The notes beneath the pieces were generated by a model. It worked only from the letters and a program-made list of their open reading frames with translations, was not told the origin of the DNA and made no database searches. Both the position numbers and the translations under genes were made by a program. DNA of 64,000 nucleotides from Candidatus Epulonipiscium sp. (GTDB lineage Bacteria > Bacillota > Clostridia > Lachnospirales > Defluviitaleaceae): the NCBI GenBank assembly GCA_012518815.1, contig JAAYRK010000052.1, forward strand, positions 1-64,000, in the 5' to 3' direction. Positions 859 through 36,918 of this stretch are shown here, piece by piece. Every line of letters starts with the position of its first letter. Position 1 is the stretch's first letter.

Positions 859-875
859 TGCGGGGAATGGTGGTA

Positions 876-1427
876 ATGAAAAAATATTTAAGTAATTCAG
901 GTTTTACAATAATTGAATTGGTAATAGTGTTAGCTGTAATTTCTATTATGGCTGCTGTAGTTGTCCCATCATTTGGAGTGACCCAAAGAAATCGCATTAA
1001 GAGTGTTTCAACTCAAATTGCTATGGATATTAATCGGGTTCGTACTCGTGCCCGTACACATCATAATCCTATAGATTCAGGTGATTATGAATATAAAATA
1101 GTTTTTAAAGATCCTGAAACTGTAGGCACAAAACAATATTATAAAAGCTATGAAGTATGTGGAAGGGAATTTAATCAAGGAAATCAGCCAGAAATCCCTA
1201 GCGGAGTATTGATTAGACCAGTAATGGGAAATGTTTCTGAGACCTTGATTAGTGAATTGCAGTTTGATGAAAAAGGGAGAGTAAGAATCAAGGATTCTTC
1301 AGGTTCTTATCACGAATGGAATGGAATTAGTTCACTAATTAAGATTAGTGTTGAAATAGAAGATTTCGACATAAAAAAAGAAGTCCAAGTCAATCAGTTA
1401 ACAGCTCAAACCTTAATTACAGAGTAG
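876..1427 (+). CDS. Type IV pilin-like protein (GspH/FimT type)
   Basis: This is a 183-residue minor pilin or pseudopilin. A short charged leader (MKKYLSNSG) is followed by FTIIELVIVL, the class III prepilin motif with cleavage expected after Gly and Glu at position 5 of the mature protein, and then a membrane-spanning helix. The C-terminal globular part has no motif I recognise. I chose the ATG behind GGGGA. An upstream GTG-type start in the same frame would overlap the peptidase gene and lengthen the leader unnaturally. It is the first of four pilin-like genes in the cluster and is probably a minor subunit rather than the main fibre protein. Confidence 0.85.
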   Translation: MKKYLSNSGFTIIELVIVLAVISIMAAVVVPSFGVTQRNRIKSVSTQIAMDINRVRTRARTHHNPIDSGDYEYKIVFKDPETVGTKQYYKSYEVCGREFNQGNQPEIPSGVLIRPVMGNVSETLISELQFDEKGRVRIKDSSGSYHEWNGISSLIKISVEIEDFDIKKEVQVNQLTAQTLITE

Positions 1428-1442
1428 TTAGTAGGTGATAAT

Positions 1443-2030
1443 ATGAAGAAAATTATAAGAATATTAAATATGGAGAGAGGTTTTACTTTAATAGAAGTAA
1501 TTATTTCACTTGCTATTTTTTCTATTCTTTCCCTTAGTTTAATGGGTATAATGATTAATTTTAGTGCTCAAACAGGAAAAACCCAAAGGCAAATTACAAC
1601 TCTTGAAAATGCACGTATAGTGTTAGAGTTTATGATTGACGAAACAAGAAGGGCTGAAGGGATTCAAATAGATAATTTATCTGGGAGACAGATATTGGCT
1701 TTAGAAATGAATGGGCTACCAGGTATTGATATTAGTGCCCCTAATCCTGATGTAGTTTTTGAATTTGATTCTAGCGAAAAAAAGGTATATTATAATGGGG
1801 TAGTATTATCTGATAATATTGAATCAATTAATTTTGTACCTTCTAGTATTGTAGATGCCGATGGAAAGATACATCCAGATCTTGATATAAATAAAGATGA
1901 CTTAATAGATGAAAGTTTAAAAATAGAGATTAAGGCATTGATTCCACAAGATGATCATATAAAATCCGATGTTGATTATACTATTACAGGTGAAATATCA
2001 ATAAGATACAAAAAAATTTTGACTAATTAA
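1443..2030 (+). CDS. Type IV pilin-like protein (PilW/GspJ type)
   Basis: A 195-residue prepilin-like protein. The leader ends in MERG and is followed by FTLIEVIISLAIFSILSLS, with Glu at mature position 5 and an uncharged helix. The following part (NFSAQTGKTQRQITTLENAR) resembles the alpha-1 helix end of PulJ/PilW-type minor pilins, which help start pilus assembly. This family assignment is by pattern only. It begins 15 bases after the previous pilin and precedes pilM, so all are probably co-transcribed. The body is rich in Asp and Ile, with no cysteines, so no disulfide loop is expected. Confidence 0.8.
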   Translation: MKKIIRILNMERGFTLIEVIISLAIFSILSLSLMGIMINFSAQTGKTQRQITTLENARIVLEFMIDETRRAEGIQIDNLSGRQILALEMNGLPGIDISAPNPDVVFEFDSSEKKVYYNGVVLSDNIESINFVPSSIVDADGKIHPDLDINKDDLIDESLKIEIKALIPQDDHIKSDVDYTITGEISIRYKKILTN

Positions 2031-2053
2031 ATTTTAGATGAGGGGTGTGGAAT

Positions 2054-3121
2054 ATGGGACAATTATTAGGCATTGAAGTTGGGAACAGCAATATTAAGCT
2101 AGTACAGGGCATTAAAAAGGGGAGGATAGTCCATGTTCAAAATCATGGGATTACAGCTACCCCTAAAAATGCTGTTCGGGACGGTTTTATTGTAGATATG
2201 GAAGCAGTATATAATGCTGCTTCAGAGTTAATAAAGAAGAAGCGTTTTAATGAACAAAATGCTGCCCTTTCAATTCAGGGGACATCGATTATTACTAGGG
2301 ATGTAATAGTACCATATATGGAAGAAAATGAATTAAGAAATGTCCTGGAATATCAAAAAGAAGAATATTTTCCAATAGATGTGTCAGATTATCAAACTGA
2401 TTTTAAAATATTGGAAAAGTTAGATACTGATGAAGGGAAGAAGTTAAGTGTTTTATTAGTAGCTGCTCCTAATAATATGATTACTGGAGCAATGGACTTA
2501 TTAAGAAGATTAAATTTAAAAGTAAAATTTATTGATATAGCTTCTAATGCTGTTGCTAATCTTTATGCTAATAAGTCCATGTCATTCCAAGGAGAAGAGC
2601 CTTATTCCATCATGGTTTTAGATATAGGAGGACAGACAACTACAGCTACAATTATATCAGACGGGAAAATATTATTTAGCCGTACTATTTTATATGGTTT
2701 TGATGAGTTAAATGATATAATTTCAAAGGAATTTAGTGAAGAAAGTTATGAGCAAGTTGAAATTTTTAAAAAGAGATATGCTGCTATTTATGATGCTGAT
2801 AAATCTCCAGAAGAAGATTTATATGGCAGTCATATCAGTCATGTTATAAAACCAGCTATTGATACAAACTTGATTCAAGAAATTAGCAGGGTGCTTGACT
2901 TTTATTATTCTAGAAATAATGCCAGAAAAGTTAAGACCATTTATTTAGTAGGCGGCGGAGCTTGTCTAAAAAATTTTGATAGATATATTGGCAAATCTTT
3001 TGGCATTAACACTGTTAGAGGAGACATTTTAGATAATATTAAAGCTAAAGATGCACTCAACTTTAAAGAAGATTTTCTTTATTTGACAAATGTACTTGGA
3101 TTAATTACGAGAATAAGTTAG
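2054..3121 (+). CDS. pilM: Type IV pilus assembly protein PilM
   Basis: PilM is an actin-like cytoplasmic protein that binds the N-terminal tail of PilN and links the pilus inner-membrane platform to the motor. The protein has 355 residues, as is usual. ATPase-fold signatures are seen: GIEVGNSNIKLVQG at the N-terminus (phosphate 1), VLDIGGQTTT near residue 187 (phosphate 2) and YLVGGGACL near residue 296 (adenosine motif). The ATG lies 8 bases after GAGGGG; a GTG nine bases upstream is less likely because it overlaps that site. The following pilN and pilO genes complete the known MNO module. Confidence 0.93.
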   Translation: MGQLLGIEVGNSNIKLVQGIKKGRIVHVQNHGITATPKNAVRDGFIVDMEAVYNAASELIKKKRFNEQNAALSIQGTSIITRDVIVPYMEENELRNVLEYQKEEYFPIDVSDYQTDFKILEKLDTDEGKKLSVLLVAAPNNMITGAMDLLRRLNLKVKFIDIASNAVANLYANKSMSFQGEEPYSIMVLDIGGQTTTATIISDGKILFSRTILYGFDELNDIISKEFSEESYEQVEIFKKRYAAIYDADKSPEEDLYGSHISHVIKPAIDTNLIQEISRVLDFYYSRNNARKVKTIYLVGGGACLKNFDRYIGKSFGINTVRGDILDNIKAKDALNFKEDFLYLTNVLGLITRIS

Positions 3122-3133
3122 GGGGGAATAAAC

Positions 3134-3751
3134 TTGAAAGATATAAACTTAATGCCTAGGGAGTATATTATTTTAGAAAAGCGAAGGAAATTAGGCATAT
3201 TTATCTTTATATTGATTATTATTGTCTTAGCCTTTATGGCTGTTTTGGTAATGGCACCAATTAGAATAATAAATCAAAAAAAGCAAACCTTAGCACAACT
3301 AAATGCTGAGCTTAAAAATCCTAAATATGAAATTATTGATGAATTAAAGGTAGAATTGAGTCAAAAACAAGATGAAAAAACTTTATTGAATAATCTTATT
3401 TCTCAGGTGGATTATAATACAATTGCAAGTAGAACAACTTTAGATATTTTGACAGGTCATTTACCACCAGACATGTATATATCGTCAATAACTGTTAATA
3501 ATGAATATATTAAAAGTTCAAATGTCAAGAATGAATATCCTTATATTAGGATTAAGGGAGCAGCTAATAGTTTTAGGGCAATATCTGACTATTCTGGACA
3601 GCTTTTAAATGTGCCTTTTATTAGAGATGTTGTCATAAATACAACAGCTGAAAGTACTGCTAAGGATGGAATTTCAGCAGATCATATAAAATATGATATT
3701 ATACTCTATGTTGACAAAACGAAGGGATCGGTGAATCACAATGAAGAGTAA
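3134..3751 (+). CDS. pilN: Type IV pilus assembly protein PilN
   Basis: PilN is a bitopic membrane protein of the pilus alignment complex. The 205-residue sequence starts with KDINLMPREY, the conserved INLxP motif that docks into PilM. It is followed by one membrane helix (about residues 22-42), a coiled-coil stretch and an extracytoplasmic ferredoxin-like domain. The start is a TTG 7 bases after a run of six G, and the INLMP motif fixes it. The end overlaps the next gene by 11 bases, which suggests translational coupling to its partner PilO. Confidence 0.9.
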   Translation: MKDINLMPREYIILEKRRKLGIFIFILIIIVLAFMAVLVMAPIRIINQKKQTLAQLNAELKNPKYEIIDELKVELSQKQDEKTLLNNLISQVDYNTIASRTTLDILTGHLPPDMYISSITVNNEYIKSSNVKNEYPYIRIKGAANSFRAISDYSGQLLNVPFIRDVVINTTAESTAKDGISADHIKYDIILYVDKTKGSVNHNEE

Positions 3752-5060
3752 ATCGATTAATTGGGGTATTGTAATTCTTGCTTTGCTATTATTTGGTGCA
3801 GTTGTTACTCTTTATATAATTTATATTTTATCCCCCCAGCTTCAGCAAATAAAACAATTAGATTTAGACATAGAAGATGTAAAGCTTCAAATTCAGAAAA
3901 AAGAAGAAGAATTACAGCAATTGGATTTAATAAGGGACGAAATTGCTCAATGTGAAAATGAAATTGCAGCAGCTAATATGAAAATACTTCCCTACAATGA
4001 AGTTGCTAAAAAGATAAGTTTTTTTGAAAGTTCATCAAAACTTAATAACTTAATTATCCATAAATATAACCTAAGAAATGGAAAAAGACAGTCGGTTTCT
4101 ATATCAGGAGAATATATTGAAGACGTTGATAAGATTAAAGATGATGAACCTAAAGGAGATTTATTGTATAGAGAATTACTTGTTGATTTAGAAGTTATTG
4201 GATACTATGATTCCATTAATACTTATCTTGAACAATTAAAAGCTAATATTAAACCCTTTACAGTTTACAGTGTAACTCTTAATGCGGATATTGAGGAAGA
4301 TAAAGCAGATTATGTTCGAGCATATTATAATTTAGGAAGAGATAGTAGTGTGGATGGATTTGTTTTAGCAACTATTAATCTTCGTACATTTTCTTTATAT
4401 GATGAAGAACAAGCAGATGATGAAATAATTAATCATAATTATATGGAATACGAATTTGATTATGATAATCCTATGAGAAAAATTAAAAGTATTGAAGATG
4501 TGCTTAGACAATTAAAAGGAGATACTCCTACTAGCAGTAGTCGTTCAAATAATGACTTTTTCGAGCACTTTAAGGACTTACTAAAACCACCAGCTAGACC
4601 AACTACTAATCCAACTATAAGTGATAAAGGTGTTAAAAATTTTAAAATTGCAATTAAGGATGCTTATGAATCTGGAGCTAATTTTTATATAGTTGGTCCT
4701 GGAGATGATGGAGAATATACAACAGTGCAAGCAACAACTGTACAGCCAGCTTTCTTTGATTTAGAATTAAGCCCTAATGGTTATGTATATAGTTTAAGCT
4801 CAACAGATCAACCGACAAAGTCTTTTGCAAAACAAATGCCTTTAGACGAATGTAAAGTAGTAATTGATTCTTCAGTAATTGAAATAAGAGAAAATCAATT
4901 ACTTAGCACTGTAATTAATATTAAAAATGATACTGGTAAGCTTTTACGTGTGGAAGTAAGAGGAAGTTATAAAGACAGAATATTCATTTATTCTACTAAG
5001 AGCGATACTCAAATTAATCCAGGAGAGACTGTAGACAATATAATGGTTAGTTATATTTAA
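3741..5060 (+). CDS. pilO: PilO-like pilus assembly protein with extra C-terminal domain
   Basis: Its position after pilN and its architecture point to PilO: one membrane helix (about residues 9-29), a coiled coil to about residue 75 and a domain with paired YDSINTYLEQL-like helices. At 439 residues it is about twice the usual PilO. A Ser/Pro/Thr-rich linker near residues 260-300 is followed by about 140 residues of beta-rich sequence ending in a part (NTGKLLRV-like, IYSTKSDTQINPGE) that looks like an immunoglobulin-like fold. That domain is not recognised and may take the place of PilP-type contacts in this monoderm cell, which is inference. Confidence 0.75.
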   Translation: MKSKSINWGIVILALLLFGAVVTLYIIYILSPQLQQIKQLDLDIEDVKLQIQKKEEELQQLDLIRDEIAQCENEIAAANMKILPYNEVAKKISFFESSSKLNNLIIHKYNLRNGKRQSVSISGEYIEDVDKIKDDEPKGDLLYRELLVDLEVIGYYDSINTYLEQLKANIKPFTVYSVTLNADIEEDKADYVRAYYNLGRDSSVDGFVLATINLRTFSLYDEEQADDEIINHNYMEYEFDYDNPMRKIKSIEDVLRQLKGDTPTSSSRSNNDFFEHFKDLLKPPARPTTNPTISDKGVKNFKIAIKDAYESGANFYIVGPGDDGEYTTVQATTVQPAFFDLELSPNGYVYSLSSTDQPTKSFAKQMPLDECKVVIDSSVIEIRENQLLSTVINIKNDTGKLLRVEVRGSYKDRIFIYSTKSDTQINPGETVDNIMVSYI

Positions 5061-5081
5061 TATGTGTTAAGGAGAATCTAT

Positions 5082-6134
5082 ATGGATAGGTTTAAGAATA
5101 TTTTTATTAATAATGATGAGTCAGGTTTTTCTATGGTCGAGATTATTATTGCTATGGCTATTTTCTCAATTTTTATAATTCCAATTTTTTCAATGGTTTT
5201 AGCTTCAGGGAAAAATACTGCTAACAGCAAACGATATTATGACGCAACCGTTATGTCACAAAATCTTTCGGAGGAAATAAAATATAAACTATCTGAGATA
5301 TTTGCAAAACATGACCCATTTCATAATACTGCTGGTATTGACCCAATTGGTAACAAAGGAACTGCTGTTGAAATTGATGATTTTTTAGATATGGATCCTG
5401 ATGTTTTTGAGGAAACATTTAAAACTAATGATTATTATTATGAAGTATATATTAGAGAAACTGATGATACTACAGAATCTTATACTATGGGTAACCCAAG
5501 TGATTTGTATATTTTAAAAAAGGGACCTATGACTGTTCCAGTAGTAGCTGGTGGTTCTTTTCCTGCAACTCCTTTAGATTCAGTGGATCTTACCCTTTCA
5601 TCCAATGATTTTACTCCATATTTTAATATTGAGTATGAAAGTGAAAATCCTGATATAGTTAAAGAAAATTTAACTTTTGGTTATGTTGATGGCAATTGGA
5701 CAACAGATTCACCGGAAAATGGAACTGATTTAACGATTTCATATGACTCATCTAAAAGAAGATACAATATATCAGTAGGAGAAAATACAACATTAACTAC
5801 TGATGATATTATTAAATTAAACATTGACTTAACTAGAGCAAATGAAGAGTTATCTTTAAATGAACTTGTTATAAAAGTTAAAAATAAATCTAAAGCAAAG
5901 GTAGTTTTATCTGTTTTCCGTTCGACAAATGAATATGATAAAAATTTAAAGATCATACCAGTTCAAGAAAATAAAGAAGGTAATATTTTCTTAGATATGA
6001 AAACTAAAATTATTCCTAGACCAAATTATATTATCAAAATTATTGTAAGAGATGCTCGTGAAACTCAAAATGGAAAAATCTTAAAGGAAATGACAGATAT
6101 ATACTCTCATGATTATAGAATTCTTACATTTTAA
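5082..6134 (+). CDS. Type IV pilin-like protein (PilV-like, large)
   Basis: A 350-residue prepilin-like protein with leader ending ESG and the motif FSMVEIIIAMAIFSIF, so it is a PilD substrate with Glu at mature position 5. It is much longer than a typical minor pilin (150-200 residues). The C-terminal half is rich in Asn, Thr and Asp and reads as beta-structure, without repeats or cysteines. The ATG is 7 bases after a perfect AAGGAG; a GTG six codons upstream would bury that site. It lies between the PilO-like gene and the giant PilX-like gene and may form part of the same tip complex, which is inference. Confidence 0.75.
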   Translation: MDRFKNIFINNDESGFSMVEIIIAMAIFSIFIIPIFSMVLASGKNTANSKRYYDATVMSQNLSEEIKYKLSEIFAKHDPFHNTAGIDPIGNKGTAVEIDDFLDMDPDVFEETFKTNDYYYEVYIRETDDTTESYTMGNPSDLYILKKGPMTVPVVAGGSFPATPLDSVDLTLSSNDFTPYFNIEYESENPDIVKENLTFGYVDGNWTTDSPENGTDLTISYDSSKRRYNISVGENTTLTTDDIIKLNIDLTRANEELSLNELVIKVKNKSKAKVVLSVFRSTNEYDKNLKIIPVQENKEGNIFLDMKTKIIPRPNYIIKIIVRDARETQNGKILKEMTDIYSHDYRILTF

Positions 6135-6155
6135 TAATAAAGGAGGGATAACAAG

Positions 6156-8813
6156 ATGACTGCTTTTTTAAAAAGGCTCCTTAAATCTGAAGAAGGTAAT
6201 GCACTTATAATGGTTGTTTTCTTAACCCTTGTTATGCTTTTAATTGCAGGAGCTGTTATGGCAATTTCTTTTTCAAATGTTGAAGTAAGTGATGCCTATA
6301 AGAAAACTTCTAACCTTTACTATGTAGCAGAATCAGCCGCAGAAAAGTTACTTGACAATGCTAATAAAATTCTTATTGCTGAAATGCCAAAATTAATGAA
6401 GGAAGCATCAGATGAGGCTAAAGCAACAGCATTTACTGAAAATTATAAATACTTAGTTTTTGAAGATTCACCTGATGACCCTGCTGATAGTGTTTATAAG
6501 CATAATTTTTATTTAGTTAATGAGGAAAATGAAAAGAATAAATTATACGAAGATAAGTTATCCTCTAAAGCTTTTGAACTCATAGATAATAAATTTTCTT
6601 CTGAGCCAGAATCATTAAAAATTGAGTATGAAGTAAAAGATGGTAGGAACAAAATATATGTTGAAGGCTACTTTGAAAAAATTCCTGATCCTGCACATCC
6701 TACAGGATATAAAGATGATGCATTATTATTAAAAGTTAAAGCCACATTAAAAAATGGGGCTGATATTCTATCTGAATTTGAGTTAGAAGGAGATGTCGTT
6801 TTAGCTGAACTTAAAGAACATGAAGAAATTTTATTAGAAGAGTATCGTTGGAAAGGTGATTATACAAATCCTGATGCTCCTGAATACAATCTTCCAAATG
6901 TTTTTAGAACCCCTGTTTTAACTTTTGGAGATTTTGTTGTTACTGATGGTGCTGAAGTTACAGTTGATGGCGACCTAAGGGCAAGAGGCTATGTGCCACC
7001 TCCATTAATAGATGGTGCTTTCCCTGAATTAGAACAATATGGTGGAGTATATGTTTCTAATGGTAGCAAATTAACAGTAGATGGTGATGTTATAACTTTG
7101 GCAAATGTTCATACTATTGCAGATACTGGTAGTAGTGTAGAAACTAATATAAATATTTCAGGGGATGTTATTGCTCATTCAGTAGTTATAGAGGATGATT
7201 ATCCAGGACTTAATCCTGGCAGAGGCATAAATGACAAGATTTCGGGTCATACAATTAATATTGGAGGAGACGTTTACGTAGATAATGATGTTGCAATAGA
7301 TAGGTATGCAGAGTCTTGTAATATTAATATTGCTGGTAATTTATTTGGTATAAGTAATAGACCTGGTTCTAATAATGACCCTAATAATGCCAGTGGAGTT
7401 TACTGCATAGGAAAAGATTCATTAATTACTATTGGTGGAAATGCTTTTGTGCATGGGCAAGCTTGGATAAGTTTTAATAATGGTAGAACATTTAGTAGAT
7501 TGTATGAAAGTATTGGAGAGCCCTATGAAGAAGTAGATTATTTAGATAAGTACAGAATTGGTGATCCAGCAGGTGACCCCATCTATTTAAGGGAAAGAAA
7601 AGATTATATAAAGAATAATAAAGTAATATTATTAAGCCATAATAATAGTAGTAATTATTTCTATGCACCTGAAAGAATAAATGCTAGTGGACATTTTTAT
7701 AAGGTAACTGATATAGATTATATTGGTTTGGGTGAAGAATTAATTAATAGTCATGGCAATTTTGATGAGCAACATGAGCTTGAAAATTTATTAAATAAGG
7801 GTGGAGTTTCTAGTAGTCAGTTACTACAAATTAATTCAAATTGGGCTAGTGATGCTAAGGCTATTCCCGGTACTAATAATGGAGTAAAGGCTTTAGATGT
7901 AATTGCTAGCAGTAGTGAAGATTATAAAGATTATTTAAAAGGTGAAGGTCCAATCAGCCCATTTAAAAGAAATTATTTTGCTGATGGAGGAACTTCTTTT
8001 GATTCAATGGGTGCTTATCGTGGTATAGAAGGATATATGTTTATAAAAAGAGATATTTTCTTAAAAGATTTAAATACTAATTCTCCTACAATAGATGGTA
8101 TGGTAAATTATATGGATTTTAATAAAGATATTGTGTATGCAGAAAGTGAAAGTGGAGGTACAACTACTGCATATACTGATATTGAAAGTGTAACTTGGTC
8201 TGAAGATAATCCTGTATACTTTACAGATACTGGTAGTGGAGCTATAGAAGTTATTGATATTAGTACTTTTAATGACGGTATAGATGTGGATGATCCTATT
8301 CCAACTTTGATTGTTGATAAAGGAAATGGTACAATTATTCTTACAGCAAATGGTAGTTTAGATAAGCTTAAAGCTTTAATTATTTCTAATGGTAGGGTTA
8401 TTTTTGATGGAGTAAGTGAGTTTGAAGGACAAATTATTACAAGAGGCTTAGTTAATCATGGTGATACTGGTTATGCCAATGAAGTTGTTGATACTACAGC
8501 CTTAGTAAGAGGAGAAAAAGCAGGAATTCTTGTTAGGAGTAATTTACTAATAAGTCATGATGAAAACATTATTTTTAAAGTAAAATGTAAAGATTATAAT
8601 CTTAAAAGAGTTGTAATGGACTATATTGGTTTAACTAGTTATTCTAAAGATCATACTGATGATGATAAGGTTAATAAAATTATAACAATACCAACTATTG
8701 GTATAGAAAAAGATCAAAAAATTGAGCTAAGTCCCGAATCAGTTATTTATACTAGTAATACAGAAGCATTTAAAGGGGTTCGCTTTGAGCTAAAAACATT
8801 AAGAATCAATTAA
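6156..8813 (+). CDS. Giant PilX-like pilus protein with beta-solenoid body
   Basis: The N-terminus (EEGNALIMVVFLTLVMLL, then YYVAESAAEKLLD) matches PilX/GspK-type pseudopilins, which lack Glu5 and carry the helix 'ESA' stretch. These cap pili or prime assembly. PilX proteins have about 200 residues, but this one has 885. From about residue 255 to 440 short strands recur with a G-D-V/G-N-x spacing (DGDV, SGDV, GGDV, AGNL, GGNA), as in bactofilins and other beta-solenoids, and again near residues 735-770. I therefore infer an elongated extracellular body, possibly an adhesin at the pilus tip. Strong AAAGGAGGG site. No sortase or surface-layer motif is seen. Confidence 0.7.
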   Translation: MTAFLKRLLKSEEGNALIMVVFLTLVMLLIAGAVMAISFSNVEVSDAYKKTSNLYYVAESAAEKLLDNANKILIAEMPKLMKEASDEAKATAFTENYKYLVFEDSPDDPADSVYKHNFYLVNEENEKNKLYEDKLSSKAFELIDNKFSSEPESLKIEYEVKDGRNKIYVEGYFEKIPDPAHPTGYKDDALLLKVKATLKNGADILSEFELEGDVVLAELKEHEEILLEEYRWKGDYTNPDAPEYNLPNVFRTPVLTFGDFVVTDGAEVTVDGDLRARGYVPPPLIDGAFPELEQYGGVYVSNGSKLTVDGDVITLANVHTIADTGSSVETNINISGDVIAHSVVIEDDYPGLNPGRGINDKISGHTINIGGDVYVDNDVAIDRYAESCNINIAGNLFGISNRPGSNNDPNNASGVYCIGKDSLITIGGNAFVHGQAWISFNNGRTFSRLYESIGEPYEEVDYLDKYRIGDPAGDPIYLRERKDYIKNNKVILLSHNNSSNYFYAPERINASGHFYKVTDIDYIGLGEELINSHGNFDEQHELENLLNKGGVSSSQLLQINSNWASDAKAIPGTNNGVKALDVIASSSEDYKDYLKGEGPISPFKRNYFADGGTSFDSMGAYRGIEGYMFIKRDIFLKDLNTNSPTIDGMVNYMDFNKDIVYAESESGGTTTAYTDIESVTWSEDNPVYFTDTGSGAIEVIDISTFNDGIDVDDPIPTLIVDKGNGTIILTANGSLDKLKALIISNGRVIFDGVSEFEGQIITRGLVNHGDTGYANEVVDTTALVRGEKAGILVRSNLLISHDENIIFKVKCKDYNLKRVVMDYIGLTSYSKDHTDDDKVNKIITIPTIGIEKDQKIELSPESVIYTSNTEAFKGVRFELKTLRIN

Positions 8814-14541: not shown

Positions 14542-15099
14542 ATGGTTTCAGCAGGAGATTTTAGAAATGGATTAACCATTCAATTTGAAGGAGAAATATA
14601 TTCTGTTATTGAATTCCAGCATGTAAAACCTGGTAAAGGGGCTGCTTTTGTAAGAACAAAGTTAAAGAACTTAAAAACTGGAGGAATTGTTGAAAAAACT
14701 TTCAGACCAACAGAAAAAGTGCCCAGAGCTCATATAGAAAGAAAAGATATGCAGTATTTATATAATGACGGTGAATTATTTTATTTTATGGATTCAGAAA
14801 CATATGATCAAATTGCATTAAACCAAGACCAATTAGGCGATTCATTAAAGTTTGTAAAAGAAAATGATTTGGTTAAAATATTATCTCATAACGGTTTAGT
14901 ATTTGGAGTAGAGCCTCCTTTATTTGTTGAATTGGAAATTACCCATACAGAACCTGGCTTTAAAGGAGATACTGCTACAGGAGCAACTAAACCTGCAGTA
15001 GTAGAAACAGGAGCTACTGTACATGTTCCTTTATTTGTTGAAATAGGAGATATAATTAAAATTGATACCCGTACTGGTGAATATCTAAGCAGGGTTTAA
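14542..15099 (+). CDS. efp: Translation elongation factor P
   Basis: EF-P enters the ribosomal E site and relieves stalling at polyproline. The 185-residue protein begins with the KOW-like domain and carries [16 protein letters not shown]; the loop residue is K32, the position that is modified in Bacillus-type EF-P. Two OB domains follow, with [11 protein letters not shown] at the end. The leader is about 75 bases and holds a weak promoter-like pair (TTGAAA, 17 bases, TAAACT). A terminator follows. Confidence 0.96.
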
Positions 15100-15130
15100 T
15101 TAAACCTTATAAAAAATTAATAATGACCAC

Positions 15131-15177
15131 AAAAAAGAGTAGTTAAAAGCTTAAAACTTTTAGCTACTCTTTTTTTG
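15131..15177 (+). terminator. Rho-independent terminator after efp
   Basis: A 14-pair stem (agagtagttaaaag with cttttagctactct, one G-T pair) around a short loop is followed by seven T. It ends the aro-efp transcription unit and isolates the sporulation operon downstream. Confidence 0.85.
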
Positions 15178-15239
15178 TTCTAAACCAGGACATCCTTTCA
15201 TAAAAATATTTATATAGGTAGCTTAAAGGAGGGGAAAGG

Positions 15240-16205
15240 TTGAAAAGCAAAGAAGTAATCTTAAGCTTTCTTAGTACTAGGCTAAAGAGCTTGTTTTACA
15301 ATTTAAGTGAAGAAGAATTTGAAAAAATTCATGAAATAAGATTAAGAGTAGATAAACCCTTAGTTATTTTAAAAGAAGGAAATTATTATTTTGTAAGAGG
15401 AGACGGTTTCTTAACCAAAAATCTTGAACAAGCTTTTATTGTATTTCAAAAAGATATTATTGATACCATTCAATTAATGAGTGATTATTCGATGTATGCT
15501 TTGGAGCAAGAGTTAAAAAATGGTTATATTACTCTTCAAGGTGGCCACAGAGTAGGAATAACAGGCAAGGTTCTAATTGAAAAAGGCGTCGTTAAAACGA
15601 TTAAATATTTTGGTGCAATGAATATAAGAATATCTCATGAAATAATGGGCTGTGCCAAAAAAGTTTTTCCCTATATTATTAATGGACAAAATATATATCA
15701 TACTTTAATTATTTCTCCTCCTGCTTGTGGTAAAACAACTATGCTTAGGGATTTAATACGTTTAATAAGCAATGGGGGTGAAAACAGATTTTTAGGACTA
15801 ACAGTAGGAGTAGTGGATGAACGCTCGGAGATTGGCGGCTGCTATCAAGGTGTTCCTCAAAATAATCTAGGACTTATGACTGACGTATTAGATGGATGCC
15901 CTAAAGCAGAAGGAATGAGGATGCTTCTTCGATCCATGTCCCCTAGGGTAATAGCTGTAGATGAAATTGGAAAAATGGATGACATATTTGCTATAGAAGA
16001 TGTAATGAATGCAGGAGTAAAACTGATATCTACTGTTCACGGTAGCTCTCTTTTGGACATACAAAGAAAACCTGTACTAAAAGAACTAATTAATAAAAAA
16101 ATATTTGAAAGGATAGTCATATTAACTAATAAGAATGGTCCAGGAACAGTTGAAGATATAATTGACGGTATAAGTTTAGAATCTTTGATGAAAGGAAGAG
16201 AATAG
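15240..16205 (+). CDS. spoIIIAA: Stage III sporulation protein AA (ATPase)
   Basis: SpoIIIAA is a secretion-type ATPase of the SpoIIIA-SpoIIQ feeding channel that links mother cell and engulfed forespore. The 321-residue protein shows Walker A (PPACGKTTM) and Walker B (VIAVDEIG), along with the family signature LLRSMSPRVIAVDEIG. The TTG start lies 6 bases after GGAGGGG. It is the first gene of a complete eight-gene operon. In Bacillus this operon is driven by sigma-E; I see no clear promoter of that type before it. Confidence 0.95.
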   Translation: MKSKEVILSFLSTRLKSLFYNLSEEEFEKIHEIRLRVDKPLVILKEGNYYFVRGDGFLTKNLEQAFIVFQKDIIDTIQLMSDYSMYALEQELKNGYITLQGGHRVGITGKVLIEKGVVKTIKYFGAMNIRISHEIMGCAKKVFPYIINGQNIYHTLIISPPACGKTTMLRDLIRLISNGGENRFLGLTVGVVDERSEIGGCYQGVPQNNLGLMTDVLDGCPKAEGMRMLLRSMSPRVIAVDEIGKMDDIFAIEDVMNAGVKLISTVHGSSLLDIQRKPVLKELINKKIFERIVILTNKNGPGTVEDIIDGISLESLMKGRE

Positions 16206-30191: not shown

Positions 30192-31487
30192 ATGAAAAAT
30201 AAAAACAAAAAATCTTTAAGGTGTGGTATTGTATTTATAATATTTATATTGTTTATTAGTCCTTATGCAGCATCTTATTATTATATACCAAAAGAAATAA
30301 AAATGATGGCAGGTAGAAATCATGATTTTGAGTTTAATCTACCCCTTCAGGCAAAAATTACCACAGAGAAAATAGGTGTGCTTAAATTTAACAATAAGCC
30401 TATAGAAAGCAATAATTTTCAGATAGATTTACGTTCTCCTTTTTCTATTCATCCAACTCAGCAATCAAGCTTTAATGTTAAGTTAAAGCTTTTAGGTTTA
30501 GTTCCTCTTAAAACTGTAAAAGTAGATATTATTCCTCCTAAGGAAGTTATTCCTTGTGGTATGACGGTTGGAGTTAATGTTTCAACAGAAGGAATAATGG
30601 TATTAGGAACAGGGTCTGTTATAGCTATGAATGGGGAAGAAGTTACCCCTTCAAGAGGGATTTTAAAGACAGGGGATTTAATTTTAAAAGTAAACGGAAA
30701 ATCTCTAGAAAACAAAGAAGAATTAATTTCCTTTATTGAAAATTCTAAAGGTAAAAGCTTAAATATAACAATCAAAAGAGATAATGAGCTTATTGAAACT
30801 AGCATTACCCCTATTCAAACTAGTATTGACAAAAGTTATAAGATTGGTGCTTGGGTTCGGGATAAAACTCAAGGAATAGGAACTATAACTTATTATAATC
30901 CTAAAAACAATATATTTGGTGCTTTAGGTCATGGAATAACGGACATTGATACAAGGCAAACTATTCCAATTAAAGATGGTAAAATAATGAAAGCAGAAAT
31001 TACATCAATTAAAAAAGGTCAAAGAGGTATGCCGGGTGAACTAACTGGAGCTATTTATGATACTAAGGAAGCATTATTAGGAACTATAGAATTAAATAGT
31101 AATCAAGGAATTTTTGGAAAAATAGAACATGATAAAATTAAGTATTTCCCCAAAAAAAAATTTCCTATCGGATTGCAAAATGAAATTCATGAAGGGAAAG
31201 CTACTATCCTTTCTAATATTTCTAATGATAAGGTAGAAGAGTTTGAAATAGTTATACAAAAGGTATCAAGATTTCAACACGATATTTCTAAAGGAATGAT
31301 AATTAAAATAACTGACCCCAGACTATTAGATAAAACAAATGGGATTATTCAGGGGATGAGTGGTAGCCCAATCATTCAAGATGGAAAAATTATTGGAGCC
31401 GTAACTCATGTTTTTGTACATGACCCCAGTAAGGGTTATGGAATATTTATAGAAAATATGCTAAAAAACGAAACAAAATTGGAATAA
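30192..31487 (+). CDS. spoIVB: SpoIVB serine peptidase (S55)
   Basis: SpoIVB is secreted by the forespore and cleaves SpoIVFA, activating pro-sigma-K processing in the mother cell. The 431-residue protein has an N-terminal membrane helix, a PDZ domain (about residues 120-205), then the catalytic domain with the His in LGHGITD (H247) and the Ser in IIQGMSGSP (S390 region). Lys/Asp-rich stretches link the parts. It precedes spo0A, as in many spore formers. The pairing of spoIVB with spo0A is conserved. Confidence 0.95.
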   Translation: MKNKNKKSLRCGIVFIIFILFISPYAASYYYIPKEIKMMAGRNHDFEFNLPLQAKITTEKIGVLKFNNKPIESNNFQIDLRSPFSIHPTQQSSFNVKLKLLGLVPLKTVKVDIIPPKEVIPCGMTVGVNVSTEGIMVLGTGSVIAMNGEEVTPSRGILKTGDLILKVNGKSLENKEELISFIENSKGKSLNITIKRDNELIETSITPIQTSIDKSYKIGAWVRDKTQGIGTITYYNPKNNIFGALGHGITDIDTRQTIPIKDGKIMKAEITSIKKGQRGMPGELTGAIYDTKEALLGTIELNSNQGIFGKIEHDKIKYFPKKKFPIGLQNEIHEGKATILSNISNDKVEEFEIVIQKVSRFQHDISKGMIIKITDPRLLDKTNGIIQGMSGSPIIQDGKIIGAVTHVFVHDPSKGYGIFIENMLKNETKLE

Positions 31488-31668: not shown

Positions 31669-32469
31669 TTGAACAATAATAAAATTAAAATTATCTTAGC
31701 AGATGATAACAAGGATTTTTGTGAAATTTTAGCTGAATATCTTAATAAACAAAATGATATGGAAGTAATAGGTATGGCAAATAATGGGACAGAGGCTTAT
31801 GATATGATTTTAGAAAAGTCTCCAGATGTTGTTATTTTGGATGTAATTATGCCCCACTTAGACGGAATAGGTGTACTTGAAAAGCTTAATAATGTTCATA
31901 TGGAAAAAAGACCGGTATTTGTTATGCTTTCAGCTGTTGGACAAGATAAAATTACTGAAAAGGCATTAAATTTAGGAGCAGAGTATTATATAATTAAGCC
32001 TTTTGATATGGAAACCCTTATTAACCGTATACGTCAATTAAAAGGCCATCATGAAATTATTAAAAGTAAAAGTTCGAATATGTCCATAAGCAAAGGGTCT
32101 TATGTTCCTACTGCTCACAATTTAGAAACTGAAGTTACTAATATTATTCATGAGATTGGGATTCCTGCCCATATAAAAGGATATCAATATTTAAGAGATG
32201 CAATTATTATGTCTATTAATGATATGGATATATTAAATTCCATTACAAAACAATTATATCCTTCTATTGCTAAACAATATAATACTACACCTAGCAGAGT
32301 AGAAAGAGCTATCCGCCATGCCATAGAAGTTGCTTGGAGCAGAGGAAAGATGGATACAATCAATAAGCTCTTTGGCTATACAATTAATAATGGAAAAGGT
32401 AAGCCTACAAATAGTGAATTTATTGCTCTTATTGCAGACCGACTAAGGTTAGAATTACAAGTTGGTTAA
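31669..32469 (+). CDS. spo0A: Sporulation master regulator Spo0A
   Basis: Spo0A is the response regulator that commits cells to sporulation and also controls acid and solvent production in Clostridia. It has 266 residues. The receiver domain shows D12-D13, the phosphorylation Asp D58 (ILDVIMP), S88 and K110. The C-terminal DNA-binding domain carries the hallmark [18 protein letters not shown]. The start is TTG, behind AAGGGGG. A separate promoter candidate and a downstream terminator make it a single-gene unit after spoIVB. Confidence 0.97.
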
Positions 32470-32476
32470 GATTTAT

Positions 32477-32520
32477 AAGCTTTCTTACTTTGAATAATAA
32501 TAAAGTAAGGAAGCTTTTTT
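32477..32520 (+). terminator. Rho-independent terminator after spo0A
   Basis: A 15-pair stem (aagctttcttacttt with aaagtaaggaagctt, one G-T pair) with a 10-base A/T loop and six T after it. Confidence 0.85.
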
Positions 32521-32602
32521 ATTTGTTATATTTATTGAAAAATCATCCATACTAATTATAGATAGAAAACAAAATCATATTAGCTGTAAAAGGGGTGAAA
32601 CA

Positions 32603-33580
32603 TTGACTATTGTAGGTGTTGCCAAAATCGACTGCAAGACAAAAAACTTAATTCATAGGCTTAGTTCTAAAGATATTGCAATTATTGACCATGAAGATTT
32701 GGATTATGTTTGTGCTTATGCTTTAGCCGCTAAAAAGGTTAAAGCAGTTATAAACAAATCCTCTTTTATTTCTGGGAAATATCCCAATAGAGGAACAGAT
32801 ATCCTTTTAGATAATAAAATTCCCCTATATGAAAATATTGACCGGACTGTTTTTAAATATATAAAAGAAAACGACAAAATTGAAATAAAAAATAATTTGC
32901 TATGTAAAAATGAAATTGCAGTTCCGCTAAAAGCTATTAATAAAAGTGATTGCAATGAATTTAAAAAAAAATCCTTAGATAATCTTCAAAATGAAATGTA
33001 TTCTTTTATCGATAATACCTTATATTATATGAAAAAAGAAAAGACTAAATTATTTCATTCTCCTAAACTTCCTTTTTTAGATATTGCTATTGCTAATAGG
33101 CCAGTTGTTCTTGTAACTAGAGGAGAGTATTATATTGAAGACTTAATAAAGTTAAAGGATTTTATTAAGAAAAAACAACCTGTATTGATTGGAGTAGATG
33201 GTGGGGGAGATGGGTTGACTTTTTTAAATTATATTCCCGATATTATTTTTGGAGATATGGATAGTGTTTCGGATGCGACCTTAAGAAAATCAAGAAATAT
33301 CGTGCTACATAGTTATGACAATGGAATATGCCCAGGAGAAAACCGTATAAAAAAATTAGGTTTGCCTTATTCAAAATATTCTTGTTTTGGTACCAGTGAG
33401 GATGGGGCTATTTTAATGTGTTATTATATGAATGCTTCTTACATTGTTATTGTAGGAAGTCATAATAATTTAATAGATTTTTTAGAAAAGAACCGAAAAG
33501 GAATGGCTAGTACAATTTTAACCAGGATTTTAGTTGGTTCCAAGCTAGTAGATGTAAAAGGTATTTTTAGACTTTTTTAA
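32603..33580 (+). CDS. SteA-like protein with thiamine-pyrophosphokinase-like fold
   Basis: A 325-residue protein. An N-terminal region of about 160 residues (SGKYPNRGTDILL) is followed by a thiamine pyrophosphokinase-like fold with GVDGGGDGLTFLNYIPDIIFGDMDSVSD. The ThiN motif for substrate phosphorylation (TRKDKTDTE) is absent. The end, RKGMASTILTRILVGSKLVDVKGI, resembles corynebacterial SteA, a cytokinetic-ring protein. I assign it to the SteA-like family from those features. It starts a three-gene set behind spo0A, with two envelope-glycan enzymes, so a role in division or the spore envelope is possible. Start: TTG after AGGGGTG. Confidence 0.68.
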   Translation: MTIVGVAKIDCKTKNLIHRLSSKDIAIIDHEDLDYVCAYALAAKKVKAVINKSSFISGKYPNRGTDILLDNKIPLYENIDRTVFKYIKENDKIEIKNNLLCKNEIAVPLKAINKSDCNEFKKKSLDNLQNEMYSFIDNTLYYMKKEKTKLFHSPKLPFLDIAIANRPVVLVTRGEYYIEDLIKLKDFIKKKQPVLIGVDGGGDGLTFLNYIPDIIFGDMDSVSDATLRKSRNIVLHSYDNGICPGENRIKKLGLPYSKYSCFGTSEDGAILMCYYMNASYIVIVGSHNNLIDFLEKNRKGMASTILTRILVGSKLVDVKGIFRLF

Positions 33581-33593
33581 AGATGGTGATTAC

Positions 33594-34301
33594 TTGGATG
33601 AAAAAATATCAATAATTATTCCTGTTTACAATGAAGAAAAAATAATAAAAGAAACCCTTAGAGGTCTTATAGATGCCAATATTAAAAACTTAGGGGAAAT
33701 AATAGTTGTAGACGATGGCTCTTTAGATAAAACAAAAAGTAGGGTTAATGAAATTAAGAGTCCTCTAATTAAATATCATAAATTAGCTCGTAATTTAGGT
33801 AAAGGAGCTGCATTAAGAAAAGGAGTAGAGCTTTCTAGTTATCCAGTTATTGCATTTTTAGACGGTGATATAGGATATTCTTCAAAAGAAATAACAAAAC
33901 TTCTTAAAGCTATTTATGACAATAGGGCTGATTTAGTTATTGCAGAGTTTCCACCTGCATCTGTTAAAGGAGGTTTTGGTATCGTAAAAAATATTTCCCG
34001 TAAGGGAGTCTATTTTTTTACAGGTAAAAATATAAAAAATCCCTTATGTGGACAAAGGGTATTTAGAAAAAAAATACTGTCTTATATAGATATTCCTGAA
34101 GGTTTTGGAGTTGAAGTAGGAATGCTTATTGATATATTAAATCATGGTTTAAGAGTAGAGGAAATTCCTGTTTTAATGACTCATAGAGAAACAAAAAGAG
34201 ATTTAAAAGGTTTTATTCATAGAGGAAAAGAATTAATTCACATTTTAACTGTATTAATTAAAAAGTCTTATCAATATAAGAATCCGAGGAATAGACGGTG
34301 A
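33594..34301 (+). CDS. Glycosyltransferase family 2 (polyprenyl-phosphate type)
   Basis: A 235-residue GT-A enzyme: IIIPVYNEEKII at the N-terminus, VVDDGSLDKT, the LARNLGKGAALRKGVE loop, the DxD-like FLDGDIGYS and a C-terminal GQRVFRKK. This pattern is like DPM1/dolichyl-phosphate glucosyltransferase, which charges a lipid carrier with a sugar. It lacks the C-terminal membrane helices of GtrB proteins. It lies 13 bases after the SteA-like gene and 4 before the membrane transferase. The sugar donor and lipid acceptor are unknown. TTG start. Confidence 0.82.
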   Translation: MDEKISIIIPVYNEEKIIKETLRGLIDANIKNLGEIIVVDDGSLDKTKSRVNEIKSPLIKYHKLARNLGKGAALRKGVELSSYPVIAFLDGDIGYSSKEITKLLKAIYDNRADLVIAEFPPASVKGGFGIVKNISRKGVYFFTGKNIKNPLCGQRVFRKKILSYIDIPEGFGVEVGMLIDILNHGLRVEEIPVLMTHRETKRDLKGFIHRGKELIHILTVLIKKSYQYKNPRNRR

Positions 34302-34305
34302 AACT

Positions 34306-35118
34306 ATGATTTTTTACTTTATTGGAGGGCTTATAGGATTTGTCACTAGTTTTTTTTGGAAGGCCCTAATTCTTGAATTTCTCATAAAATATAAGATAGC
34401 AAAGACTAATTACAAGCAAGAAATAATTCCAGTAGGAATGGGTATTTTGTTATTTTTTTCAGTTTTGATTGCTAGTTTTTTTATCATTTTTTTTACTGAG
34501 CAACCCATTATTTATTATGTTTTTCTTTTTGGTCTTTCTCTTATTGCTTTTGCAGGCCTCCTTGATGATATAATAGATGAAAATGAAGTTAAAGGTTTAA
34601 AAGGCCATCTTAAAAAGATGTTTAATGGAGAATTAACTGGTGGGGGTATAAAGGCTATTATTGGAACTTTGATTGCCTTTTATGTTTCTTTCTTATTTTC
34701 TACAGATATAATTGATTTAATTCTTAATATATTAATTATTCTTTTTTCTATTAATAGTATAAACTTATTTGATTTAAGGCCTGGAAGAGCTTTAAAAATA
34801 TTTTTTTTAATTAGTATTATTTATTGGATTATAGGAGACTTTTCTGACAAGTATTTAACTCTTTTAGTTATTGGTAGTAGTTTGCCTATATTAAAAGGAG
34901 ATTTGAAAGGGCAATATATGCTCGGAGATGTAGGAGCAAATATTTTGGGCTATACTTTAGCTTTTACAGGAATGATTTCTCTAAATTTTTATTATAAAAT
35001 GATAAGCATTGTATTATTAATTGTTCTTCACATTATTGCGGAGACAAAATCTATATCAAGCATTATTAATAAAGTTCCATTACTTCGATATTTAGATTAT
35101 TTAGGAAGAGAAAAATAA
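34306..35118 (+). CDS. MraY/WecA-like membrane phosphosugar transferase
   Basis: A 270-residue membrane protein with about eight to ten helices. It shows family motifs of the polyprenyl-phosphate N-acetylhexosamine-1-phosphate transferases: LLDDIIDE, the loop with GHLKKMFNGELTGGGIK, INLFDLRPGRALK and YMLGDVGANILGY. The catalytic Asp positions are present. It is shorter than MraY or WecA (about 320-350). Probably it loads a sugar phosphate onto undecaprenyl phosphate for a glycan made with the neighbouring GT2, which is inference. It is not the main MraY, as no division genes surround it. Confidence 0.78.
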   Translation: MIFYFIGGLIGFVTSFFWKALILEFLIKYKIAKTNYKQEIIPVGMGILLFFSVLIASFFIIFFTEQPIIYYVFLFGLSLIAFAGLLDDIIDENEVKGLKGHLKKMFNGELTGGGIKAIIGTLIAFYVSFLFSTDIIDLILNILIILFSINSINLFDLRPGRALKIFFLISIIYWIIGDFSDKYLTLLVIGSSLPILKGDLKGQYMLGDVGANILGYTLAFTGMISLNFYYKMISIVLLIVLHIIAETKSISSIINKVPLLRYLDYLGREK

Positions 35119-35140
35119 AATAGGCTAAGCTTAGCCTATT
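35119..35140. terminator. Bidirectional terminator between convergent genes
   Basis: An exact 22-base palindrome (aataggctaag with cttagcctatt) lies between the MraY-like and rqcH stop codons. A and T tracts flank the two sides. It probably ends both transcripts. Confidence 0.7.
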
Positions 35141-35142
35141 AT

Positions 35143-36918
35143 TTATTTTGATAATTTTTTTTTAGAAAGACTCTTTTTTATTTTTATTTCATCAGGGGTA
35201 ACATATATGGTCTTTTGATTTTCATAAATAACCATTCCAGGTTTAGCTCCTTTAGGTTTTTTTACGTTTTTTCTTAGTGTATAGTCTACTGCTACATTAC
35301 TTGAATTTTTGGCTTTGCTATGGTATGCAGCAAGATTTGCAGCCATAAGCAGAGTAGCTTCTGGAACTTCTTTGTTTTCAGTTTTAATAATAACATGAGA
35401 ACCAGGGATATCTTTAGTATGAAGCCATAAATCCATAGGACCTGCAAGACGAAAAGTTAATTCATCATTTTGACGGTTATTTTTTCCAATATAAATATCA
35501 AAGCCTTCGTCAGATTTAAAATGTAAAGGTTTAGATTTTATTTTTTCATTATGAACTTTTCCTTTTTTATTTTTAACATAGCCTTGTTCTTGCAATTCCT
35601 TTTTTATATCTTCAATATCTTCAATGTCGGTAGAAGATTCTATTGAAGAAAGCAAAGATTCTAAATAAGCTATTTCCTCATTAACAAGTTTAAGTTGCTC
35701 TATGAGGGCTTCTTTAGTTCTTTTAGCTTTATTATATTTGCTGAAATACTTTTGAGCATTTTGAGCTGGTGTAAGGACTGGATCTAAAGGAATAATAACT
35801 TCACTTAAATTATCCTCATAAAAATTAATAGTAGTATATGAGGTCATTCCCTTTGAAATATTGTATATATTAGAAGTAATAAGATCCCCAAAAATCCTTA
35901 AATAATCACAATCAGACACATCTTTTAATTGACGGCTTTGAATATCTTTTTTCTTATAACACCTTTCTAGATTATTTTGAATAATTTTTTGAATATCTTT
36001 GGACTTTTGTTTGATTCTAGAAAGATTATCTTTTTCTTTGTAATAATCTTCGATTAGTTCTGATACAAAGTCATAGTTCTTTTTTTTGTAGTTTGTAAAT
36101 TGTGTTAAATCAATAGAAGAAAACTCAATAGGTGCTTCTGTATTAGGATCATATATAATTTGTGGATTAAAGGAATTTTCTCTTATTGAATTAAAAATAT
36201 CTTTCATGATTTCTGATATCCGCTTTATATCATCGTCTTTTAATTCTTCTAAATATGTAGAGGCATCTATATTTGCCCTGTGGCATATTTCTGAAGCAAT
36301 AAGAGGGCTAATTCCTGTAAAAGATTTGTATATAGCTTGCTGAAGCTTTGTTCCGTTATTACCTTTTAAGTGTTTTCCATAATCAGCATCCATAAGCTTT
36401 AAAGGATTTATTTTATCTTGAGAAGGAGGTCTTTGATAAGTTCTTCCTGGTAAGACTTCTCTAATGGAGCTTTTATCTTTTGTAACGCGGACAATACTGT
36501 CTAAAATAAGGTTTTTATCGTCGGTTAGAATAATATTACTATGACGTCCCATTATTTCGATAATTAGTTTTTTTACAGTTAAGTCTCCTAGTTCATTATT
36601 ATTTTCAATATGAAATTCAATGATTCTTTCAAAATCTGGCTGAATTACATCAATTAATTTGCCTCCAGTTAAATGCTTTCTTAAGAGCATACAAAACATA
36701 GGAGGACTTTGGGGATTTTTCTTTTGAATATTAGTAACATGGCTTCTTGGATGATTACTGTTAGAACTAACTAATAAGCGATAATTTGTCTTACTTACTC
36801 TTATTTGAATTATTATTTCGTCGGATTCTGGTTGATATATTTTATCTATTCTTCCATCTAACATAAGTTTTTTAATTTCGTAAACAATGTTAGAAATTAC
36901 AATGCCGTCTAATGCCAT
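35143..36918 (-). CDS. rqcH: RqcH / NFACT ribosome quality-control protein
   Basis: RqcH binds obstructed 50S subunits and directs C-terminal alanine tailing of stalled peptides. It is also known as a fibronectin-binding-like protein. The 591-residue protein has NFACT-N (MALDGIVISNIVYEIKK...), HhH, coiled-coil middle domain (about residues 290-430) and NFACT-R with DLWLHTKDIPGSHVI. The tRNA-contacting position is E97-R98 (DFERII) where the Bacillus protein has D97-R98. This conservative change probably keeps function. It stands alone on the - strand between + strand operons. Confidence 0.93.
   Translation of the reverse strand: MALDGIVISNIVYEIKKLMLDGRIDKIYQPESDEIIIQIRVSKTNYRLLVSSNSNHPRSHVTNIQKKNPQSPPMFCMLLRKHLTGGKLIDVIQPDFERIIEFHIENNNELGDLTVKKLIIEIMGRHSNIILTDDKNLILDSIVRVTKDKSSIREVLPGRTYQRPPSQDKINPLKLMDADYGKHLKGNNGTKLQQAIYKSFTGISPLIASEICHRANIDASTYLEELKDDDIKRISEIMKDIFNSIRENSFNPQIIYDPNTEAPIEFSSIDLTQFTNYKKKNYDFVSELIEDYYKEKDNLSRIKQKSKDIQKIIQNNLERCYKKKDIQSRQLKDVSDCDYLRIFGDLITSNIYNISKGMTSYTTINFYEDNLSEVIIPLDPVLTPAQNAQKYFSKYNKAKRTKEALIEQLKLVNEEIAYLESLLSSIESSTDIEDIEDIKKELQEQGYVKNKKGKVHNEKIKSKPLHFKSDEGFDIYIGKNNRQNDELTFRLAGPMDLWLHTKDIPGSHVIIKTENKEVPEATLLMAANLAAYHSKAKNSSNVAVDYTLRKNVKKPKGAKPGMVIYENQKTIYVTPDEIKIKKSLSKKKLSK

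Follow-up and report, generated by a model that had tools for sequence, protein, structure and literature searches.

The steA-GT2-MraYL genes behind spo0A in Defluviitaleaceae as a possible reduced form of a conserved four-gene unit of Bacillota

A stretch of 64,000 nucleotides from Candidatus Epulonipiscium sp. (contig JAAYRK010000052.1, positions 1 to 64,000), here called the window, carries three adjacent genes behind spo0A, which encode a core SteA protein, a family 2 glycosyltransferase (GT2) and a compact protein of the MraY fold, for which the name MraYL is used here. The trio may be a reduced form of a conserved steA-steB-GT2-MraYL unit, in which GT2 and MraYL are glycan enzymes, SteA is a sensor and the SteB output arm has been lost in the window family; we give this reading a probability of roughly 45%. 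The gene order, the co-occurrence, the predicted folds, the joint loss of SteB and the SteA membrane anchor, the constraint on the genes and the promoter enrichment upstream of steA, from which it starts, are plain observations. The position of SteAB behind spo0A in Clostridia, with a suggested role in sporulation, is already in print (PMC12977500). What appears to be new is the link of SteA and SteB to GT2 and MraYL, the joint loss and the promoter signal: in the open-licence literature, nothing was found that connects SteA or SteB in Bacillota to both a glycosyltransferase and an MraY-like gene, or that bears on the joint loss or on a promoter signal at steA.

The trio and the four-gene unit of Bacillota

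The initial annotation of the window described three adjacent, co-directional genes after the spo0A terminator, and both the open reading frames and the hairpin are present:

30192..31487, forward strand: spoIVB (context), TIGR02860 at 418.7 bits, cut-off 305.25
31669..32469, forward strand: spo0A (context), TIGR02875 at 417.8 bits, cut-off 200
32477..32516, forward strand: intrinsic-terminator-like hairpin in the spo0A/steA gap, stem of 16 pairs followed by a T run
32525..32554, forward strand: conserved promoter-like block, TTATA at 32526-32530, 17 bases, CATACTA at 32548-32554
32590..32597, forward strand: ribosome-binding-site-like AAGGGGTG ahead of the TTG start of steA, read from the sequence
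32603..33580, forward strand: steA (NF040608), core protein of 325 residues lacking the C-terminal membrane helix and amphipathic tail
33594..34301, forward strand: GT2, 235 residues, GT-A fold (PF00535 at E 2.5e-29; predicted model and fold search)
34306..35118, forward strand: MraYL, 270 residues, compact MraY/DPAGT1-fold transferase (predicted model, fold search, invariant motifs)
35119..35140, both strands: terminator-like hairpin common to MraYL and the convergent NFACT gene (terminator scan)
35143..36918, reverse strand: convergent NFACT/FbpA-like gene (context), PF05833 at E 7.8e-158

The gaps between the three forward-strand frames are 13 bases (steA/GT2) and 4 bases (GT2/MraYL), and the terminator scan gave 4 sites of this type, where shuffled sequences led one to expect 1.3. 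All eight genomes examined from the window family, Defluviitaleaceae (order Lachnospirales), Defluviitalea phaphyphila among them, retain the trio. The ratio of nonsynonymous to synonymous substitution rates (dN/dS) in four genome pairs within the family is 0.065-0.092 for steA, 0.115-0.151 for GT2 and 0.098-0.147 for MraYL. A chance cluster is ruled out by this conservation, by the overall dN/dS of 0.065-0.151 and by the co-occurrence described below.

For gene order in relatives, 80 neighbourhoods were fetched, 73 of them outside Defluviitaleaceae, and searched with profiles grown from the window proteins. The usual order in Bacillota is spoIVB-spo0A-steA-steB-GT2-MraYL. Among the 73 loci, MraYL is present in 72, the succession steA..GT2..MraYL in 69, steB adjoining steA in 64 and the complete steA-steB-GT2-MraYL order in 60, with spo0A directly upstream in 56. 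A second collection of 79 named loci outside the family, some of them cut by contig ends, gave MraYL in 67, the four-gene order in 61 and spo0A in 44. As a rule the GT2 and MraYL genes overlap or almost adjoin (median gap -4), and in Defluviitaleaceae steB has gone from the middle with the remaining genes still in order. In D. phaphyphila (L058 / L138) the trio does not stand directly behind spo0A; spo0A and spoIVB lie outside the stretch fetched upstream of steA, and the promoter-like block is still kept.

Downstream of the unit, Bacillota loci often carry DUF3866, NUDIX, SpoIIM and XerD genes (clusters of 68, 49, 42 and 30 open reading frames over 149 loci, one representative of each having been scanned), and gene sizes at the Clostridioides difficile locus agree with the unit followed by these four in that order. 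The SpoIIM-family gene (PF01944 in the scanned representative) lies downstream of MraYL in many loci, for example at L150:12739-13374. Related sets that include steA, steB and MraYL also occur at some loci of Actinomycetota (Kribbella, Serinibacter) and Armatimonadota. At a Kribbella locus (L157:10080-13467), the interval from steB to MraYL gave no GT2, and the gene directly downstream of MraYL encodes a MurJ-family flippase (PF03023, E 3.8e-46), with a GT4-type glycosyltransferase gene after it. The MurJ-family gene directly behind MraYL fits a lipid-linked product.

Across a sample of 398 Bacillota genomes, steA was found in 242, steB in 240, MraYL in 238 and Spo0A in 345. The first two occur together in 237 genomes, with steA alone in five and steB alone in three; steA and MraYL likewise share 237 genomes, with steA alone in five, MraYL alone in one and neither in 155. 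The suggestion in the initial annotation that the trio forms an envelope-glycan module is supported by gene order (69 of 73 loci), by the co-occurrence of steA and MraYL (237 of 398 genomes) and by the predicted folds. Conservation among spore formers, the check that the annotation had proposed, gave a divided answer: Spo0A is present in 238 of the 242 steA-positive genomes, but steA is missing from 107 of the 345 Spo0A-positive ones, and the related sets of Actinomycetota and Armatimonadota lie outside the phylum.

The third gene had been called a short MraY-like transferase, and its predicted fold agrees with this description. The window MraYL has no Pfam match at E 0.1; however, of the 28 relatives that were aligned, 18 match PF00953, and a profile built from all 28 detects MraY among PDB entries at E 3.7e-5. 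The predicted model, built from 66 sequences (predicted local distance difference test, pLDDT, 95.1; predicted template modelling score, pTM, 0.92), matches MraY 8cxr (Z 24.1, root-mean-square deviation, rmsd, 3.1 over 239 residues) and DPAGT1 6bw6 (Z 24.1, rmsd 2.9 over 248 residues), and the first unrelated row of the fold search has Z 4.5. Residues D87, D88, N150, N153, D156, G207 and D208 are invariant and aligned to MraY, so that MraYL shares with MraY, WecA and DPAGT1 the fold and the paired Asp, NxxNxxD and GD motifs. It differs in length (270 residues against 300-380 in the listed MraY, WecA and DPAGT1 structures) and in its family signature N-xx-N-xx-D-x-R-P-x-R, in which D-x-R-P-x-R (the fifth place being G in at least 90%) stands where MraY has DGxDG. 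MraY proper has a C-terminal histidine triad; none was found among the conserved C-terminal columns of the 66 sequences, in which H101 is the only invariant histidine. The possibility that MraYL is the cell's own MraY was rejected: the window genome has one profile match, which lacks the triad, and 160 of the 398 genomes, which must nonetheless have MraY, give no match at E 1e-15, so the MraYL profile is distinct from canonical MraY. MraYL would thus add a new branch to the MraY superfamily.

The assignment of the second gene to GT2 is upheld by the PF00535 match and by the GT-A fold of its predicted model (62 sequences, pLDDT 95.4), which resembles glucosyl-3-phosphoglycerate synthase (GpgS) 3ckj (Z 24.4, rmsd 2.2 over 213), dolichyl-phosphate mannose synthase 5mlz (Z 22.9, rmsd 3.2 over 223) and ArnC 9bhe (Z 21.6, rmsd 2.6 over 213). 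Its acidic DxD motif, D90 and D92, is invariant in the 62 sequences. GT2 differs from these three enzymes in that it reaches the curated cut-off of none of the NCBIfam families listed (GpgS 68.1 bits against 262) and that its 235-residue model has no transmembrane anchor. The predicted fold does not choose between acceptors of the GpgS, dolichyl-phosphate mannose synthase and ArnC types.

Joint loss of SteB and the SteA membrane anchor

The first gene is SteA-like, as had been annotated, with NF040608 at 363.3 bits against a cut-off of 150 and a match confined to model positions 1-324 of 369. What the annotation did not include is that SteB and the membrane tail of SteA, present in nearly all relatives, are both missing at the window locus. 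The window protein shares its core and pocket with SteA of the SteAB pairs of Mycobacteriales (Rv1697-Rv1698; cgp_1603-1604), its family profile finding PDB 9hmy at E 6.6e-91. The window locus departs from these pairs in that SteA has neither membrane helix nor amphipathic tail, the genome has no SteB match, and GT2 and MraYL are operon partners. With thiamine pyrophosphokinase, SteA shares a nucleotide-binding stretch around a GDMDS motif; however, the match extends over about 40 residues only, and a plain thiamine pyrophosphokinase was rejected on scores below the curated cut-offs (PF04263 28.6 against 30.7, TIGR01378 32.7 against 76.4).

In a sample of 76 Lachnospirales genomes, SteA exceeds its cut-off in six, all Defluviitaleaceae. 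SteB (PF11382) exceeds its cut-off in none of the eight Defluviitaleaceae genomes (that of the window being 2.19 Mb in 117 contigs, 92% complete), and no SteB match over cut-off was found in a genome of another family (G081, family f40). Over 158 SteA rows, counted with L138 and open reading frames of more than 480 residues set aside, the C-terminal tail is 0 residues in all eight Defluviitaleaceae, 3 in G081 and at least 25 in the other 149, the shortest of which is cut by a contig end. The short tail of L140 reflects a contig end, and L150 and L151, flagged by a hydropathy cut as possibly helix-less, do not have short tails in this count. Eight sampled anchored loci have no steB next to steA, and all eight genomes carry steB elsewhere. 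The other steA-positive, steB-negative genomes have a SteA that is full-length or cut near a contig end (G158, G376) or a fragment (G404). In a tree of 106 SteA proteins (without L061, L138, most named loci and frames over 480 residues), Defluviitaleaceae branch close to Alkaliphilus, G081 falls in a different part, and two changes to the anchorless state are required by branches with good support. Defluviitaleaceae have lost steB and with it the membrane helix of SteA, and a separate second lineage shows the same double loss. As a separate observation, steA of one single-contig genome (G412:C1:1727583-1728681) appears as two overlapping pieces in different matches, possibly split by a frameshift or a sequencing error.

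The core has been retained through these losses: of 78 positions conserved at 93% or more, 68 are kept in both anchorless lineages, the ligand-pocket stretches included. On the Defluviitaleaceae stem, the ratio of stem length to the median path among other species is 1.10 for the SteA core, against 0.30 for GT2, 0.37 for MraYL, 0.27 for Spo0A and 0.37 for SpoIVB, a change far larger than that of its neighbours and consistent with a new partner or job upon the loss of SteB. The long stem branch, together with the loss of anchor and partner, could also mark SteA as a relic in decay. This is scarcely tenable and largely refuted, since the dN/dS of steA in the four pairs is lower than that of GT2 or MraYL; in addition, the gene is found in all eight genomes and 68 of the 78 core positions are kept.

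The promoter signal upstream of steA and the link to sporulation

A block ending in CATACTA is common to the region upstream of steA in all eight Defluviitaleaceae genomes, and that of the window is matched once in the 64 kb and never in 100 shuffles. Judged from its sequence, it could be a sigma-G-type promoter with one mismatch, or possibly a sigma-E promoter. In the 112 bases upstream of steA at 151 loci outside the family, CATACTA is the most over-represented 7-mer (10 loci against 0.43 expected). The sigma-G consensus known from Bacillus subtilis work is GHATR-17/18-CATWMTA. With at most one mismatch, it is matched upstream of steA at 20 of 142 loci (Defluviitaleaceae and 10 near-duplicate or related named loci having been left out), where shuffled sequences gave 3.1 (sd 1.6). 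For a scrambled motif the count was 0, with 1.8 expected, and sigma-F, sigma-E and sigma-A forms were not enriched at these loci (sigma-E with at most two mismatches, 0 of 142 against 1.5 expected). The enrichment is seen upstream of steA only, with 0 sites upstream of steB, 2 upstream of GT2 and 0 upstream of MraYL. Among the six exact matches is that of the second anchorless lineage (L065). The motif was picked after CATACTA had been seen, and the part free of that selection is the spacing of the -35 element: among 103 -10-like sites, an exact GHATR element stands 17 or 18 bases ahead in 12 cases, compared with 0.59 for each other spacing. In a control upstream of spoIVB, the sigma-F form was found 34 times against 7.7 expected, but a scrambled motif was also found 11 times against 0.9; related loci therefore inflate such counts.

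In Defluviitaleaceae alone the steA block may also be a sigma-E promoter, because the spoIIIA promoter of relatives resembles it, with GTCATATT in three of six genomes and GTCATAAT in one, and a divergent form in the window and L223. Upstream of spoIIIAA itself (window 15099-15240; L223-L227), a block with GGACATCC and CATANAA is kept in six of six family genomes compared; it resembles a sigma-E promoter accompanied by a SpoIIID-like site.

The role in sporulation that had been suggested for the trio is favoured in part. The presence of Spo0A in nearly all steA-positive genomes and the sigma-G-type enrichment speak for it; the many Spo0A-positive genomes without steA and the related sets of Actinomycetota and Armatimonadota speak against it. 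Evidence from C. difficile also weighs against a sporulation promoter: the scan found no sigma-G-type site upstream of steA at its locus (L214), and with locus numbers deduced from gene order, the main text of a sporulation-regulon paper (PMC3789822) makes no mention of CD1215-CD1220, and that of a Spo0A paper (PMC4028888) makes none of CD1215-CD1218.

A division role, the other suggestion, draws on the septal role reported for Corynebacterium SteA, which requires its own membrane helix, needs SteB for robust septal localisation and, when it lacks the helix, is diffuse or misses the septum and does not function (PMC6705760). It is not simply transferable to the window locus, because the SteA helix and SteB are both absent there.

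Possible function and alternatives

On the reading of the trio as a reduced unit, MraYL would move a sugar-1-phosphate from a UDP-sugar onto undecaprenyl phosphate, and GT2, using a second nucleotide sugar, would extend this lipid-linked sugar or make an undecaprenyl-phosphate sugar, the two enzymes thereby starting a lipid-linked envelope glycan. A cytosolic SteA dimer may bind a UDP- or GDP-containing substrate or product of GT2 or MraYL and so report the state of the pathway; CgSteA is reported to be stabilised by GDP and UDP (PMC12977500). In most relatives the signal would pass through the membrane helix of SteA to SteB, which would position a peptidoglycan hydrolase, as reported for Mycobacterium, where SteA and SteB form a transmembrane complex positioning the hydrolase RipA (PMC12977500). 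In Defluviitaleaceae and one other lineage, in which the SteB arm was lost, SteA would act from the cytosol on the glycan enzymes or on another partner. Expression of the unit would come at least partly from a sporulation-type promoter in several lineages, and probably in Defluviitaleaceae too.

A bolder form of this proposal, possible but distinctly doubtful, holds that the steA-steB-GT2-MraYL unit forms a checkpoint of spore-forming Bacillota that has not been described before and is often expressed in the forespore. MraYL, as a compact new family of the MraY fold, and GT2 would make the lipid-linked glycan, SteA would read the nucleotide or nucleotide-sugar state and SteB would convert it into peptidoglycan hydrolysis. 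The hydrolysis arm and the SteA anchor would have been dropped together twice, leaving a soluble SteA that regulates the glycan enzymes directly; the ligand that SteA bound ancestrally would then be something that its operon partners use or make.

Several points weigh against SteA as a sensor for the glycan enzymes. Binding tests with MtSteA were inconclusive (PMC12977500). SteA (TapA), a cell-separation protein predicted to be essential in Mycobacterium tuberculosis, is reported in Mycobacterium to be linked with the two-component system MtrAB in a way that does not depend on SteB/MctB (PMC12338722), and thus SteA without SteB may have a partner that has nothing to do with the glycan enzymes. 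The ligand of SteA may have changed as well, because its core was much altered on the Defluviitaleaceae stem. Fisher tests on the co-occurrence counts are extreme but descriptive only, because related genomes are not independent and the counts are not independent events. Mycobacterial SteAB presumably works without GT2 and MraYL as neighbours. The 92% completeness of the window genome also counts against the reading.

The interaction of SteA with MtrB, reported to be independent of SteB (PMC12338722), is also an argument for a module of vegetative division, in which SteA would reach the septum via another membrane protein (for example a sensor kinase, as reported for MtrB) or a basic membrane-facing surface, the product would be a general wall polymer and sporulation would have no special part. 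The Actinomycetota and Armatimonadota loci and the C. difficile evidence agree with such a module; Spo0A in 238 of 242 steA-positive genomes, a sigma-G-type enrichment confined to the region upstream of steA, and the diffuse, non-functional state of helix-less Corynebacterium SteA (PMC6705760) do not, and we consider it unlikely, if a serious contender. It is improbable that the genes are neighbours without joint function, sharing only ancestry and expression within an old, stable recN-to-xerD neighbourhood inherited whole. NUDIX, SpoIIM and XerD genes, which likely have other functions, are also often nearby, and relatedness inflates all co-occurrence counts; however, GT2 and MraYL have a median gap of -4, the exceptions to the pairing of steA with MraYL number just 5 and 1 across about 160 genera, and Defluviitaleaceae lost the internal steB with the order of the other genes unchanged. 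SteA might instead itself catalyse a step of the glycan route, as a nucleotidyl or pyrophosphoryl transferase that evolved from the thiamine pyrophosphokinase fold and became coupled to SteB only later. Its conserved pocket is retained without SteB or anchor and its nucleotide-binding half resembles thiamine pyrophosphokinase, but that match is short and below cut-offs and the SteA literature examined reports no enzymatic activity, which makes an enzyme highly improbable.

For the reading as a reduced unit, the near one-to-one company of SteA with two nucleotide-sugar enzymes across Bacillota suggests candidate ligands for SteA. In the anchorless lineages, evolution has parted the cytosolic SteA core from the SteB output, and with SteB and the anchor both gone, a separate role of SteA can be tested; the promoter signal likewise allows a role in spore formation to be put to the test. 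The proposal, should it hold only in part, still offers a working hypothesis for four genes behind spo0A in many Clostridia, C. difficile included.

Two minor observations concern other parts of the window and its genome. The genome has two Spo0A_C matches, of which, among the matches listed, only one lies in the spo0A of the window. At window positions 91-8813, a run of genes, judged by eye only and including prepilin-peptidase-like, prepilin-like and PilM-like genes, resembles a type IV pilus or type II secretion cluster.

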